Source of the DNA: Eleftheria terrae
GTDB taxonomy: Bacteria > Pseudomonadota > Gammaproteobacteria > Burkholderiales > Burkholderiaceae_C
Assembly (NCBI RefSeq): GCF_030419005.1
Contig: NZ_CP106952.1
Location: forward strand, 496,001 to 560,000
DNA: 64,000 bases
Direction: 5' to 3'
In this document: positions 2,859 to 36,845 of the stretch, piece after piece
Position numbering within the stretch: position 1 is the stretch's first letter
Layout: every line of letters begins with the position of its first letter
Position numbers and translations under genes: made by a program
The notes under the pieces: model-generated
Database searches by the model: none
What the model was told of the DNA's origin: nothing
Seen by the model: only the letters and a program-made list of their open reading frames with translations

Positions 2859-2945
2859 GACTCGCCACGGTGATGGGCCAGCGGGTGATGCCCGGCCCGT
2901 TCTTGCAGATTTAGCTCGGCAGCAACAAGGAAGGCCGGATTGCGG

Positions 2946-3422
2946 ATGGCTACCAATACCGAACTCGAGGTGTCGCGACACGTCGAAGCGACGCTGGAAT
3001 TCCTGCATGAGGACTTGAAGCTCAAGCGGCTTCTGGCGTTGACCTACTCGCGCGCCGAGGCAGGGCAGGCCGCCATCGACCTGGTCTTGCCTCTCTTCTG
3101 TGGGCCCCGCACGCCACCGTGGCACCTGGTCCACCTGTCCGGGGAGGCCTCGGTCACCTTGAAGATGCTGGACGACTGCCTGGCGGCCTTCGAGCAGCTC
3201 AGGATGTGGAGCGCCTGCGACATCGAGAGCGCCATTGCCGGCACGGCGGCGTCGCTCCAGACGTCCACCGCCAAGCTGAGCGCGCTCATCTCCTACATGG
3301 TCTTCGGGAACCCGCCCGGCATCCCGATCGGCGACCTGCTGGAGTTCTTCGGCAAGAGCCAGTCGCTGTCGACGCTGCGCCGGAACACCGAGACCTTCCG
3401 CAGCATGAACCTGATTTCCTGA
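2946..3422 (+). CDS. Stand-alone GluRS-like anticodon-binding domain protein
   Basis: A 158-residue protein with no signal peptide and no membrane segment. Its C-terminal two thirds resemble the last domain of bacterial glutamyl-tRNA synthetase as I remember it. Matching landmarks are a conserved Trp in MWSACDIE, the alternating AI...TAASL helix, a Gly-x4-Pro pattern in FGNPPGIPIGDLL, and FFGKSQSL, which corresponds to the GK(T/E)xS(I/L)xR segment of GltX. No Rossmann catalytic domain, HIGH motif or KMSKS motif is present. A strong AAGGAAGG at 2927-2934 serves either the TTG at 2940 or the ATG at 2946, and I chose the latter. It lies 87 bases after the SyrP-like hydroxylase, so it may belong to the same cluster. 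Its function is unknown: it could bind tRNA-Glu in an aminoacyl-tRNA-dependent step, or be a regulator. Confidence 0.7.
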   Translation: MATNTELEVSRHVEATLEFLHEDLKLKRLLALTYSRAEAGQAAIDLVLPLFCGPRTPPWHLVHLSGEASVTLKMLDDCLAAFEQLRMWSACDIESAIAGTAASLQTSTAKLSALISYMVFGNPPGIPIGDLLEFFGKSQSLSTLRRNTETFRSMNLIS

Positions 3423-3573: not shown

Positions 3574-4131
3574 TCAGCCGGCACGCCTGCGGCGTGTGCC
3601 CAGGGCCACCAGGCCCGCCACCGTCAACACGACGGTGGCCGGCTCCGGCACCGGGCTCAGCGCCAGGGTGTGTTCGGCGGCCAGCTCGGCGGGGCCGGCA
3701 ATGAGGTAGTTGAGCCCGAGGTCGAGATCGCTCGCCTCGCTGAACACGCGAAGGCGGGTCACACCGGCGTCCAGCACCCGAAAGCGCAAGGTCCCAAGCG
3801 CCAGTACTTCCGTCCCCGGGTCGGCCACACCGGGGAAGGCCGACGCGCCGTAGCGGCCGGGGCCGAGCCAGGGGCTGTCGTCGTTCCACCCTTCGGCGGG
3901 CAGGAACTGCAGCAGCTGCAGCCGGCTGGCATCGAAGTCGAGCCGGAAGCCGAAGGACAGCAGCAGCTCGGCCGGATCGAGCTGCGCGAACGGATGGCGC
4001 AGCCGCAACTGCAGCGCGAAGGACTGGCCGACGCGCGGCTCGCCGGTCAGCTGCAGCGCCGCACCGGCGGCCCGGGCGAACAGCGGGCTGGCGGCCAGCA
4101 GCAGGCTGGCCAGCAAGGAGCGGTAGTTCAT
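3574..4131 (-). CDS. PEP-CTERM sorted protein with cohesin-like domain
   Basis: A secreted protein of 185 residues. The N-terminus is a Sec signal (MNYRSLLASLLLAASPLF...). The C-terminus is a textbook PEP-CTERM signal: VPEPAT, a hydrophobic helix, then RRRR, which exosortase systems recognise for surface delivery. The region between has the features of a cohesin fold: VGQSFALQLRLR, then LSFGFRLDFDASRLQLL, and a closing LALGTLRFRVLDAGVTRLRV. The next gene on this strand, which lies upstream in transcription, ends in a dockerin-like duplicated calcium repeat, so the two may dock (inference). I used the ATG at 4131 because the signal peptide starts there. An upstream extension to 4179 is possible but adds an unlikely leader. 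No exosortase is encoded in the window. Confidence 0.85.
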   Translation of the reverse strand: MNYRSLLASLLLAASPLFARAAGAALQLTGEPRVGQSFALQLRLRHPFAQLDPAELLLSFGFRLDFDASRLQLLQFLPAEGWNDDSPWLGPGRYGASAFPGVADPGTEVLALGTLRFRVLDAGVTRLRVFSEASDLDLGLNYLIAGPAELAAEHTLALSPVPEPATVVLTVAGLVALGTRRRRAG

Positions 4132-4162
4132 GGTGGAGGGTGTGGTGCAGGCGTGACGCGGC

Positions 4163-6787
4163 TCAGCGAGCCCCGCCATAGGCCTGGTACCAGGCCCGGT
4201 AGTCGGCCTGCGTCACGCAGCCGTCGGCATCGAAATCGGCCAGCGGCTCGAAGCGCGCCTGCCCGGTGCAGCTGGCGAGCGCCTGGCGCAGCGCCTCGCG
4301 GTCGGCCGCATCCACTGCGCCGCTGGCGTCCAGGTCACCGGCCGCCAGCACCCGCAGGGCGGCGCGCGGCGCCGCCTCGGCATAGCCGTCGTCCAGGAAG
4401 AGGCCGATGAAGTACTCGCCCTCCTGCAAGCCGGCCACCGCCTGGCTGCCCGCGGCGCTGGCAAGGTAGTTCCAGGCCAGCGAGCCCTGCACGCCCGGGG
4501 TCTGGCCCTTGCGGTAGACGCCGATCCAGTGCCGGCTACCGGGTGGCAGGCCTTGCCACTGCACCTGCGCCGCCTGGCCGGCACGGATGCGTTCGCTCTG
4601 CAGCCGCAGGCTGGCGGCGGCCGGTGGGGTGGGGGGCAGCACGGGCGGCGGCGACCAGGTGACGCTGGCCAGGCCATTGAGCACCGGGTCGGTGGCATCC
4701 AGGCCGGCGCCTTCCAGATGGCCGGCCAGGCGGCGCTGGTAGCTGGGGTCGCCGTCCACCGTCACCACCAGGTCGTACCAGCCGTGGCTGGGGGAGACAT
4801 CGCGCGGCTGCACCCGCGTCTGGCCGGGCGGCACATCGATGCTGATCACGGTGCGGTCGCCATAGGCGTTGTCCACGCAGCGGAAGCGGCAGGTGCCGGC
4901 GCCGCCGTTGAAGAAACTCAGGCGCACCACCCGCGCGGCAGCGTCTTCTTCCAGGCCCACCTCGGCGCGGGCCGCGGCCGATGCCAGGTTGCCGCGGAAC
5001 TCGCGCAGGAAGCCGTTGTGGCTGTGCACCGCGAGGTGGTAGGCCGGCGTGCTCCAGTTCCACACCTCCCGCTCGATGCGCTTGCCGGCCTCCACCGTGT
5101 AGTGCCAGGGCCCGTCGCTGCGCAGCGTGGAGTAGACGATGTAGGCGGCTGCCGGCGTGCCGGCCGCGGCGGCATTGCCGAAGTCGAGCGCGAACTGGCT
5201 GGCGGGCAGGGCGGTGCCGTGCAGCTGGCAGCGATAGGTCAGCGGCATGGCCGGGCGTGGCCTGCCACTGGCGGAGCGCTCCTGGCGCGGCAGGGCCTGG
5301 CGGGCCGGCGGGAGCGCGTCGCGGCTGCCCCAGCCCTTGAAGTAGACGGCCGAGCGCGGCACGCTGTCCGGGAAGCCGGCCGGCGGGGCCGCGAAGTCGA
5401 AGGCCTGCGTCAAGTCACCACAGACCGCGCGCCGCCAGGGCGAGATGGCGTCGCAGCGCACCCTGGCCGGCTCCAGCCCGCGGCCGTGCACCAGCCAGGT
5501 CTCCAGCAGGCGCAGCAGCGAGGTGTGGTCGAACAGCTGGGAGCACACCCGGCCGCCCTTGCTCCACGGCGACACGACCAGCGCGGGCACGCGCGGCCCA
5601 AGCCCGATCGGCTCGCTGCCATGCACCTCGCCCTGGGTGGCGTTGCCGAGCGTGGTGCGGCCGCGGGCGACGCCCAGCGGCGGCACGGCCGGCGGCATGT
5701 GATCGAAGAAGCCGTCGTTCTCGTCATAGGTCAGGATCAGGGCCGTGCGTGACCAGACCTCGGGGTGCGCCACCAGCGCCTGCAGCAGGCGGGCGGTGAA
5801 GTGTTCACCGGCATTGGGCGTCTGGTCCGGGTGCTCGCAATACTCGGTGGGTGCGCAGATCCATGACACGGCCGGCAGCCGGCCGGCCGCCACGTCGGCC
5901 GCGAAGTCGTCGATCAGCCATTGCCCGGTGGTGCCTGCCGCATTGGTGGCGTTCGAGCCGGGCGCCATCGCGCGGCCGCGCCGGTAGAGCGCCGAGTCGG
6001 GCGTGAGCGGCCGGCCGCTGGCGTCCACCCGGAAACTCCTGAAGTACTGCAGGTAGTTGTCGCCGTAGTTGTCCCACTCTTGGTAGACCTTCCAGCTGAT
6101 GCCGTTGGCCTCCAGCAGCTCGGCATGGCTGCGCCATTCGATGCCGCGGGCCGAGGGCGCGTCATTGGCGATGTCGGCGTTGTAGGTGCCGTTGTTGACG
6201 TTGTAGAGCCGGGCGTCCGGGATGCCGGTGACGTGGCCGCCGGCATGGCCGCTCAGCGCATAGAAGCGGTTCGGGTCGGTGGGACCGAAGACCGAGCAGT
6301 GGTAGGCGTCGCAGACGGTGAAGGCGTCGGCCAGCGCGTAGTAGAAGGGCAGGTCGCTGCGGTCGAAGTGCCCCATCGTGCGCACGGTCTTGCGGGCGAC
6401 CCAGGCGTTCCAGTCCTTCCAGGTGGCCTCGCTGCCCTTCCAGCTGTGGTCCAGGCCGACCCGCAGCGCATTGGTGTTGCGGATGTCGAAGTGGTAGGGC
6501 AGCACATGGCCGCTGCCGTGGGGCTGCGCCCAGACGGGTTGCCCGCCGGGCAGCGGAATGGGGCGGGGATCGCTGTAGCCGCGCACGCCGCACAGCGTGC
6601 CGAAATAGCTGTCGAAGGAGCGGTTCTCCTGCATCAGGAAGATCACATGCCCCAGGTCGGCAATGGTGCCGCTGCGGTGGTGGGCCGGCGTGTCCAGTGC
6701 GCGCCGCAGCGTGGCGGCGAAGGTGCTGGAGCCGGCCATGGCGGCGCAAGCCGTGCTCAGGAAGGCTCTGCGGGAGGGCTGGGTCAT
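4163..6787 (-). CDS. Tat-exported phospholipase C with C-terminal dockerin-like repeat
   Basis: A phosphoesterase-family phospholipase C (phosphocholine-specific type) of 874 residues, which cleaves the head group from phospholipids outside the cytoplasm. It starts with a twin-arginine signal (PSRRAFLSTACAAMAG). The catalytic N-terminal motif VIFLMQENRSFDSYFG is intact, followed by the long phosphoesterase domain and the usual C-terminal beta domains to about residue 690. Unusually, the chain continues through a proline-rich linker and an extra beta domain into a final stretch of about 58 residues with two calcium-loop repeats, GDLDASGAVDAAD and ADFDADGCVTQAD, typical of dockerin type I. The ATG at 6787 is chosen for the Tat signal. 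The gene lies 31 bases upstream of the cohesin-like PEP-CTERM gene on the same strand, so they are likely co-transcribed. Confidence 0.9.
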   Translation of the reverse strand: MTQPSRRAFLSTACAAMAGSSTFAATLRRALDTPAHHRSGTIADLGHVIFLMQENRSFDSYFGTLCGVRGYSDPRPIPLPGGQPVWAQPHGSGHVLPYHFDIRNTNALRVGLDHSWKGSEATWKDWNAWVARKTVRTMGHFDRSDLPFYYALADAFTVCDAYHCSVFGPTDPNRFYALSGHAGGHVTGIPDARLYNVNNGTYNADIANDAPSARGIEWRSHAELLEANGISWKVYQEWDNYGDNYLQYFRSFRVDASGRPLTPDSALYRRGRAMAPGSNATNAAGTTGQWLIDDFAADVAAGRLPAVSWICAPTEYCEHPDQTPNAGEHFTARLLQALVAHPEVWSRTALILTYDENDGFFDHMPPAVPPLGVARGRTTLGNATQGEVHGSEPIGLGPRVPALVVSPWSKGGRVCSQLFDHTSLLRLLETWLVHGRGLEPARVRCDAISPWRRAVCGDLTQAFDFAAPPAGFPDSVPRSAVYFKGWGSRDALPPARQALPRQERSASGRPRPAMPLTYRCQLHGTALPASQFALDFGNAAAAGTPAAAYIVYSTLRSDGPWHYTVEAGKRIEREVWNWSTPAYHLAVHSHNGFLREFRGNLASAAARAEVGLEEDAAARVVRLSFFNGGAGTCRFRCVDNAYGDRTVISIDVPPGQTRVQPRDVSPSHGWYDLVVTVDGDPSYQRRLAGHLEGAGLDATDPVLNGLASVTWSPPPVLPPTPPAAASLRLQSERIRAGQAAQVQWQGLPPGSRHWIGVYRKGQTPGVQGSLAWNYLASAAGSQAVAGLQEGEYFIGLFLDDGYAEAAPRAALRVLAAGDLDASGAVDAADREALRQALASCTGQARFEPLADFDADGCVTQADYRAWYQAYGGAR

Positions 6788-34968: not shown

Positions 34969-36845
34969 TGCACCGGTGGCCGCCGGCGCGCGCGCATGAC
35001 CATCATGCCGAGGCCCAGGGTCAGCAGCAGGGCCGTTTCCGGTTCAGGGACCGCGCTCACCACCAGGTCCATGAAGCCCGCACCGTAGACGGCCGAAAGG
35101 CGGTAGGCGGCTGGGTCCAGGTTGCTGCTCAACTCGCTGAACTGCGAGAAGACCCCCGCGTCGGCGCTGAGCAGACGGAAGCGGCCGGCAGCCACCGCGT
35201 TGTCCGAGAAGGTGGCTTGGAGGGTACCGCCCAGCGTCAGCGATGCCCGGGCGTGCAGCTGGTCGAAGCGGGCCGGTGCGAGGATGTCGACCTCGAACCG
35301 CAGCCCCTCCCCGAAGGACGCCTGCTGCAGCAGCCCCAGGCCGACGGTGCCATCCTGGCCGGCGCCGAAGCGTCCCTCGTGCAGGCTGGCCACCCCTTGG
35401 AGCTCGCCGTCGAGCCATGTCGCGGCATCGGCGCCGGATTGACCGAACCCGCCAACGGCGCTGAGCCGGCTGTGCTCGCCGATGACGACGGTGCCGGTGT
35501 TCGACAGCTGCTGCACGGTCATCGCCGCTGCGTTCAAGAGTTGCAGTTCACCGCGGTTGCTGCGCAGCGCCCCCAGCGGGCTCAGCACCTGCCCCCAGAC
35601 ATTGACGCTCTCCAGCCGTGCATCGGGCCCGTCCAGGATCAGGGTGGCCGCGCTGTCCTCGATGCCGAACCAGGGGTAGGCGTCGATGCCGGCCGGCTGC
35701 AGCTGCAGCGTGCCGTCGCGCATGACATACCGGCCGCCCGTCAGGCTGGCCCGGCTGCGGTTCCATTGGGCCAATGGTCCGCGCACCTCGATGCGCGAGC
35801 GAACCGCCTCGAGGGTGCCGGTGTTGTCCAGGGCGCCGTGGAAGGCCAGCGTGCCAGCGTCAGTGACCCGCACGATGCCGGTGTTGACGAAGGTGCTGTC
35901 GATGTGGGTGCGTCCCGCACCGGTCTTGAGGTAAGTGCCGCGGTTGTCGAAGGCGAACACGCCGATCTCCACCGGGAGCGATGACTGGCCGTCCGTGCTG
36001 GGCAGGTCCCTCGGGACGCGGTCCTCGAAGACCGTGCCGGCGGCCACTGCGATGCGGCCGGCGCCCAGCAGGTGGGCATCGCCCGCCCACTGCACGCCGC
36101 CGTTGAAGTGGAAGTCGGCCTCGAGATGCTTGGCGGGAAGGGTGCCCTGCGAGTCATAGGTGTGGCCCGACAGTTCGGCCAGTCCCCGCACGGTGGCGGG
36201 TCCACGCACCTGCAGCTCTGCGCCTCGCCAGACGAGCCGGTCGACGGTGAGCCGGCCCGACACGTTGAGCACCGAATGAAACCAGCCCAGGTTGGGCTGC
36301 AGGTACGGGTCGTCGAGCAGCAGCGCCCGGCTGTCGAGCGAGTCGTGCACCGACACTGAAGCACTCCGCAGCACCTGGATCTCGCCGCGGCCCGACAACA
36401 CGCTGCTGGGCACCTGGACGATGGCATCGGCGAACTGCAGCACGCCGTCGTTGCGGATGCTGCCACCGGTGAAGTCGACGGGCCGCCAGCGCTCGTCCCT
36501 CGGGTTGCTGCTGAAGGTCAGCGTGCCCGCGCGGCCCACCCGCCAGTCGGCGGTGCTGTGGAACAGCGTCCAGGGGCTGTCCACCGACATGCTGCCGCGT
36601 GCCACGTCGATCGGCCCGTCGAAGCGCAGGGAGGCGCGGAAGAAGAACATCTCGAGCCGCCCGCCGTCGACCAGGATGCGCCGCCCTTGCTGCTCCCAGG
36701 ACTCACCCGCCGAGCCGGTGATGGACAGCAGCTCGCCGTCCCGCACCACCAGATCCTCGGCTGCTGTCCAGGCGCCAGGGCCCGGCGCAGCGGACGCTGC
36801 CAGGCACAGGCAGGGCAGGGTGAAGGCCACGAGTGTCGATTTCAT
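34956..36845 (-). CDS. Large PEP-CTERM surface protein with beta-helix-like repeats
   Basis: A 629-residue exported protein. The signal peptide is MKSTLVAFTLPCLCLAASA. The middle consists of repeated short beta strands rich in Gly, Asn and Thr (NTGIVRVTDAGTLAFHGALDNTGTLEAV, in pieces; LSNTGTVVIGEHSRL), as in autotransporter-like right-handed beta helices. The end is VPEPET, a hydrophobic helix and RARRR, the PEP-CTERM sorting signal. AGGAGG sits just before the ATG. The role may be adhesion or matrix structure. It is the second PEP-CTERM substrate in the window, so the genome must carry an exosortase elsewhere. Confidence 0.85.
   Translation of the reverse strand: MKSTLVAFTLPCLCLAASAAPGPGAWTAAEDLVVRDGELLSITGSAGESWEQQGRRILVDGGRLEMFFFRASLRFDGPIDVARGSMSVDSPWTLFHSTADWRVGRAGTLTFSSNPRDERWRPVDFTGGSIRNDGVLQFADAIVQVPSSVLSGRGEIQVLRSASVSVHDSLDSRALLLDDPYLQPNLGWFHSVLNVSGRLTVDRLVWRGAELQVRGPATVRGLAELSGHTYDSQGTLPAKHLEADFHFNGGVQWAGDAHLLGAGRIAVAAGTVFEDRVPRDLPSTDGQSSLPVEIGVFAFDNRGTYLKTGAGRTHIDSTFVNTGIVRVTDAGTLAFHGALDNTGTLEAVRSRIEVRGPLAQWNRSRASLTGGRYVMRDGTLQLQPAGIDAYPWFGIEDSAATLILDGPDARLESVNVWGQVLSPLGALRSNRGELQLLNAAAMTVQQLSNTGTVVIGEHSRLSAVGGFGQSGADAATWLDGELQGVASLHEGRFGAGQDGTVGLGLLQQASFGEGLRFEVDILAPARFDQLHARASLTLGGTLQATFSDNAVAAGRFRLLSADAGVFSQFSELSSNLDPAAYRLSAVYGAGFMDLVVSAVPEPETALLLTLGLGMMVMRARRRPPVHHSL

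Follow-up and report, generated by a model that had tools for sequence, protein, structure and literature searches.

Gene arrangement at the locus

In the window, by which we mean the whole analysed stretch of 64,000 nucleotides from Eleftheria terrae, a phospholipase C gene and a small gene directly downstream of it share the reverse strand. Both were found where the initial annotation had placed them, and the following features were assigned:

4163..6787 (-): phosphocholine-specific phospholipase C (PLC), 874 aa (TIGR03396, PF04185, PF05506, PDB relatives)
4343..4612 (-): Ig-like (SKICH-like) domain, about residues 726-815 of PLC, immediately ahead of the dockerin
4199..4342 (-): dockerin of PLC, residues 816-863, with the calcium loops GDLDASGAVDAAD and ADFDADGCVTQAD (PF00404, profile, alignment)
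4132..4162 (-): intergenic gap between PLC and P0002, 31 nt (sequence)
3574..4131 (-): PEP-CTERM protein with predicted cohesin fold (P0002), 185 aa (AF2 model, Foldseek, VIA, PF07589, TIGR02595)

PLC consists of an apparently twin-arginine-like N-terminus (our reading of the motif PSRRAFL), the catalytic domain, two PF05506 stretches, the Ig-like domain and the C-terminal dockerin. With 695.4 bits it lies above the cut-off of the PC_PLC equivalog TIGR03396 (580.25), PF04185 was also matched in the protein scan, and a PDB search returned phospholipase C relatives (best E 2e-141). A second PC-PLC of the same genome (C2:2733215-2735353 (-), 756-aa frame) scores higher and carries no dockerin tail. 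P0002 comprises a signal-peptide-like hydrophobic N-terminus, a beta-sandwich (residues ~21-160) and a PEP-CTERM tag (residues 160-183). Elsewhere in the window, another PEP-CTERM match was located at 34980-35051 (-) in a 712-aa frame, and a 160-aa frame at 2940-3422 (+) encodes a stand-alone anticodon-binding domain (PF19269) near TauD-like and ABC transporter genes.

The dockerin tail of the phospholipase

PLC ends in two calcium loops with Asp/Asn ligands, as is typical of type I dockerins. The HMM check of this end against Dockerin_1 (PF00404; cut-off 22.9 bits) failed in the protein scan with 19.7 bits and succeeded in the genome scan with 24.8 bits. A database search with the tail gave 19 hits, of which 15 contained Ig domain and dockerin (11 PLCs and 4 purple-acid-phosphatase-like metallophosphatases), three the Ig part alone, and one was a different dockerin protein. 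In an alignment of 12 sequences, comprising the window PLC and 11 of the 15 dockerin-carrying hits, both loops were retained throughout, D7, D18, D42, D44 and D51 were invariant, and a Cys pair was present in ten sequences. The two dockerin-type loops quoted in the initial annotation are hence confirmed, and loss of calcium ligands, which it had proposed to look for in homologues, was not seen in these sequences. Because the loops are retained in all 12 sequences and the pairing with a partner gene recurs in all seven tail-bearing genomes of the family (see below), the dockerin is not a chance match.

The dockerin profile retrieved solved dockerins, the best being 2y3n_B (E 8.2e-9). The Ig-dockerin tail was modelled with a pLDDT of 91.1 and a pTM of 0.80, and Foldseek placed 5k39_B, which belongs to a solved complex of type II cohesin and dockerin, at rank 4 (E 4.8e-4). 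Structure comparison of this model spans residues 1-91, that is, the Ig part alone, for which similarity to SKICH and further Ig/Fn3 domains was seen; the dockerin assignment therefore relies on the sequence profiles.

The small PEP-CTERM protein

The sorting tag ascribed to the small neighbour was recovered by PF07589 (20.9 bits; cut-off 20.7) and TIGR02595 (24.4 bits; cut-off 16), and with this C-terminal tag and an exosortase in the genome P0002 qualifies as a PEP-CTERM protein. Its description as a cohesin fared unevenly. The Pfam scan gave no match to PF00963 at E<=10, with HMMER filters that drop most weak matches, the NCBIfam scan found no cohesin, and phmmer against the PDB returned ribosomal proteins alone (E 0.58 or worse) and no cohesin. 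At the level of sequence, the lack of a cohesin match that the initial annotation had named first among its refuting outcomes was thus observed. Structure and profile comparison, on the other side, spoke for a cohesin. In the AF2 model the core has a pLDDT >90 in most blocks, cohesin-bearing chains occupy Foldseek ranks 1-19 and VIA ranks 1-38, and the predicted fold is thus the cohesin jelly roll; the profile of the P0002 family reaches solved cohesins only at E 0.06-0.3. A database search with P0002 alone (7996 candidates scored) gave a near-identical copy and nothing else, a search of plasmids gave no match, and in the same genus, apart from the own gene, weak matches were confined to the tag region. 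The P0002 family emerged once partners had been located by gene context. On the predicted model, a cohesin-type fold that the Pfam model does not see is supported as the sole domain of P0002.

Calcium-loop repeats are found in many non-docking proteins. The dockerin-like end of PLC might thus be a mere calcium-stabilised cap and P0002 an independent matrix protein, the two being co-regulated neighbours that do not bind each other. The failure of the Pfam cohesin model on P0002 fits this explanation, yet the P0002 model matches the cohesin fold across its whole domain.

Co-occurrence of tail and partner

Tail and partner were searched in 399 genomes of the own family, with the best ~10 candidates per genome scored. 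The tail profile matched 15 of them at E<=1e-8, and Ig domain plus dockerin were matched at E<=1e-65 in seven of the 399 (G000, G083, G085, G189, G239, G294, G355). The eight remaining matches concern mainly the Ig part (G036, G161, G154, G237, G364) or another dockerin type (G202, G302, G394). The partner profile matched nine genomes at E<=1e-3, and at E<=2e-50 it found the same seven genomes, with one match each, directly downstream. The suggested survey of gene co-occurrence thus found tail and partner adjoining in the same 7/399 genomes. The partner frame of G239, which extends ~40 aa beyond the tag, was missed by the PEP filter and recovered by BLAST. Two further named genomes, Mitsuaria sp. 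GD03876 (L022) and Paucibacter sp. DJ2R-2 (L023), are concordant; Mitsuaria chitosanitabida (L021), with the same partner as G294, was left out as a separate count. No partner was found within 1.5 kb at L059 or by the PEP filter at L025, L026 and L027.

Absence was also joint: in G036 and G161 the PLC with its Ig domain stops before the dockerin, and no partner was matched at E<=1e-3. That tail and partner are present together and absent together speaks against neighbours that do not bind. In G085 and G189 the Ig-dockerin tail sits on a metallophosphatase-type protein and the partner is retained, so that one dockerin-cohesin type is reused on two unrelated enzymes, PLC and metallophosphatase, which again disfavours a mere cap.

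The position of P0002 immediately downstream, with one partner per enzyme, would also suit a chaperone dedicated to PLC, or a dedicated activator or inhibitor of it, rather than an anchor. We regard such a role as highly improbable, since the partner family also occurs beside the metallophosphatase, similar proteins lie beside peptidases, an MBL-fold protein and a GH10 protein, and P0002 bears a C-terminal sorting tag.

In its score above the equivalog cut-off the window PLC is like the PC-PLC family (TIGR03396), from which it differs by a rare tail: among at least 111 matches in 80 of the 399 genomes (best two per genome scored), seven have the Ig tail and five of these the dockerin. When 369 genomes sampled across the class were searched with the tail profile, G523 was the sole match beyond the own genome (dockerin part only), with no partner in view.

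Dockerin genes and PEP-CTERM neighbours across the family

The weak partner hits in G213 and G042 are PEP-CTERM proteins encoded immediately after other dockerin genes, and Dockerin_1 was therefore surveyed family-wide. Over the 399 genomes, 88 match at E<=0.01 and 70 above the cut-off. From ~118 rows we excluded ten over-cut-off matches in frames >5000 aa, repeats in counted frames and sub-cut-off matches. Of 80 dockerin matches examined, 58 end <=31 aa from the C-terminus (45 genomes), 14 stop 70-76 aa short of it and eight lie further inside. The group of 14 has no PEP neighbour; most resemble one family, and L121, the one scanned, is a GDPD.

Among the C-terminal dockerin genes, 25/58 are followed at once on the same strand by a PEP-CTERM frame, whose first possible start lies -55 to +105 nt from the dockerin stop; 5/58 have one upstream (L142 doubtful) and 28/58 have neither. 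The same filter applied to the opposite strand over 1.1 kb downstream gave two short frames of 93 and 120 aa. These counts use open frames because the simple gene caller missed some partners; the PEP filter used a pattern of our own making, and some partners were identified by visual inspection. In the own genome, PEP-CTERM is matched at least 49 times in 7.03 Mb, which corresponds, as a rough estimate, to under 1% of its genes. The combination at the locus, which the initial annotation had considered unusual, is accordingly one instance of a common family arrangement.

The PEP-CTERM neighbours were collected as a set of 29 (A6), consisting of P0002 and further downstream and upstream ones; near-duplicates of the P0002 family are omitted, and four members adjoin weaker or non-C-terminal dockerin matches. 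PF00963 is matched by 20/29 at E<=0.1 (best 6.1e-12) and PF07589 by 27/29, and the A6 profile retrieves cellulosomal cohesins (best E 5.1e-14). The pairing of other dockerin types with PEP-CTERM proteins, many of them cohesins called by Pfam, argues against a cap and an independent matrix protein, although the 28 C-terminal dockerin genes lacking such a neighbour are in its favour. On balance, we judge that explanation unlikely.

Ten dockerin proteins were scanned for enzyme families, giving three C25 peptidases, two metallophosphatases (one a database protein whose genomic context is not known), one MBL-fold, one GH10 and one M20-like protein, and two without enzyme family. Eight additional ones comprised three C25 peptidases, two M12B-type metalloproteases (L040, L042), one GDPD and two without enzyme family. 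No adjoining PEP-CTERM frame was found at L040, L042, L090, L093 and L160.

Several arrangements recur in the collected loci. L147, L113, L133, L139, L091 and others encode C25 peptidases that contain TSP3 repeats and end in a dockerin, each followed directly by a PEP-CTERM gene. At L164, L168, L172 and L176, another dockerin type has a PEP-CTERM cohesin-like gene directly upstream; L176 (= L128) encodes a GH10 family protein. L145 (G189) contains two dockerin genes in one stretch with a near-identical cohesin-like protein after each, the tag being SEP instead of PEP. Outside the family, in the Phycisphaerae MAG L024 (2423-3628), a Planctomycete, a short dockerin protein precedes a PEP-CTERM relative of the partner (hhalign 97.5, E 5.3e-12); both Pfam scores of this pair are under the cut-offs, and there is no Pfam cohesin match.

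Co-variation of dockerin and cohesin

For 35 pairs, distances of dockerins and cohesins correlate with r 0.89, those of enzymes and cohesins with 0.84 and those of dockerins and enzymes with 0.81 (partial correlation 0.66). Over 507 comparisons involving unrelated enzymes, the dockerin-cohesin correlation is 0.81. The cohesin of the nearest dockerin is the nearest cohesin in only 18/35 pairs and has rank five for the window pair; L107 and L148 show strong disagreement between both distances. As co-inherited neighbour genes yield a like correlation, co-variation supports contact without proving it.

Export, sorting and genomic setting

The own genome has one exosortase (EpsH) match (E 7.1e-72), which lies among EPS-type genes; we read its neighbours from sequence as a putative chain-length kinase, a putative EpsI-like protein and a putative sugar-nucleotide enzyme. 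A type II secretin scores above the cut-off. The route of PEP-CTERM proteins across the outer membrane is described as unknown (PMC12188702). A search for a Pho box upstream of ten tail genes found none, with scores of 8-9 of 14 as in random window stretches, and phosphate control of these genes is thus unsupported; for L178 and L179 the open-frame start was used, hence a region farther upstream was scanned.

With respect to clients, the genome encodes one dockerin above the Pfam cut-off, that of PLC, and one weak match below it. Its only Pfam Cohesin match is the C-terminal part of a secretin-like protein (794 aa, L143:5661-8045 (-), contig C3), which could in principle meet a dockerin, too. 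P0002 might anchor other dockerin proteins in trans within a larger complex, with PLC as one client among several, and the dockerin genes that have no neighbouring PEP-CTERM gene would agree with this. The near lack of further dockerins in the own genome and the single domain of P0002 make it quite improbable.

Relation to known systems

The Ig-like domain ahead of the PLC dockerin is reminiscent of the X module found in type II X-dockerins. In Ruminococcus flavefaciens, a Gram-positive bacterium, ScaE is a sortase-anchored single cohesin that holds the cellulosome; ScaE and P0002 both combine a single cohesin, predicted in P0002, with a C-terminal surface-sorting tag, ScaE differing by its sortase and Gram-positive host. 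Cellulosomal pairs (2y3n, 5k39, 1ohz) share with the window pair the cohesin fold, predicted for the latter, and the two-loop dockerin. The window pair differs in that its client is a phospholipase, its host is Gram-negative and its anchor protein would have a single cohesin and an exosortase tag. A multi-cohesin scaffoldin as expected for a cellulosome was not found in the own genome, given its two dockerin matches and one Pfam cohesin. Non-cellulosomal cohesins are known from glycoside hydrolases of Clostridium perfringens and from Archaeoglobus fulgidus (2vo8, 2jh2, 2xdh); according to the PDB titles, those of C. perfringens are enzyme modules, while the predicted cohesin of P0002 stands alone with a sorting tag.

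The PEP-CTERM/exosortase system, as described in PMC1569441, combines signal peptide, C-terminal PEP tag and an exosortase among EPS genes, as here, and its PEP-CTERM proteins are said to show little homology to known proteins. The role of non-cellulosomal cohesins and dockerins is called unknown in PMC5244752, citing Peer 2009. These two questions meet in such gene pairs. A full-text literature search, with most subscription papers outside its scope and a description elsewhere being possible, did not find PEP-CTERM joined with cohesin, dockerin or both; dockerin and exosortase are mentioned together in work on methanotrophic archaea, in separate sections.

A predicted docking pair and its implications

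Predicted cohesin fold, dockerin, sorting tag, operon-like order and co-occurrence all agree with and support a predicted docking pair. Docking is in our view the probable function of PLC and P0002, based on the domains, the fold predicted for the partner, the order of the genes, the shared presence or absence of tail and partner across genomes and their reuse on two unrelated enzymes; from these we infer binding, calcium dependence, surface location and a benefit of the pair. Against it stand the Pfam-negative P0002, the weak reach of its family profile to solved cohesins and the dockerin genes without PEP-CTERM neighbour. The two genes would form a self-contained docking cassette: PLC, with its Ig-dockerin tail, may be exported via its twin-arginine-like start and the type II secretin, and P0002 would be exported via its signal peptide and then cut at the PEP-CTERM tag by the sole exosortase found in the genome. 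P0002 would be displayed outside the cell or within the polysaccharide matrix, where its single cohesin would bind the PLC dockerin, presumably with Ca2+, and PLC would thereby be retained at the cell rather than lost through diffusion.

Beyond this locus, we think it more likely than not that single-cohesin PEP-CTERM proteins of exosortase-bearing Gram-negatives are dedicated, exchangeable surface sockets, each encoded beside its dockerin-tagged enzyme, as a general non-cellulosomal display system. If true, its cargo would include phospholipase C, phosphatases, C25 peptidases, GH10 and other proteins, and the system would be spread across Burkholderiaceae-type bacteria and reach at least one Planctomycete. 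Since partner and cargo are both predicted for these compact two-gene units, and relatives missing dockerin and partner together provide a natural control, it is directly testable whether the two bind, whether binding depends on calcium and what the exosortase contributes. The pairs also suggest ready-made single-enzyme display modules for Gram-negative surfaces, and the socket reading, if true, would explain what an entire class of PEP-CTERM proteins does.
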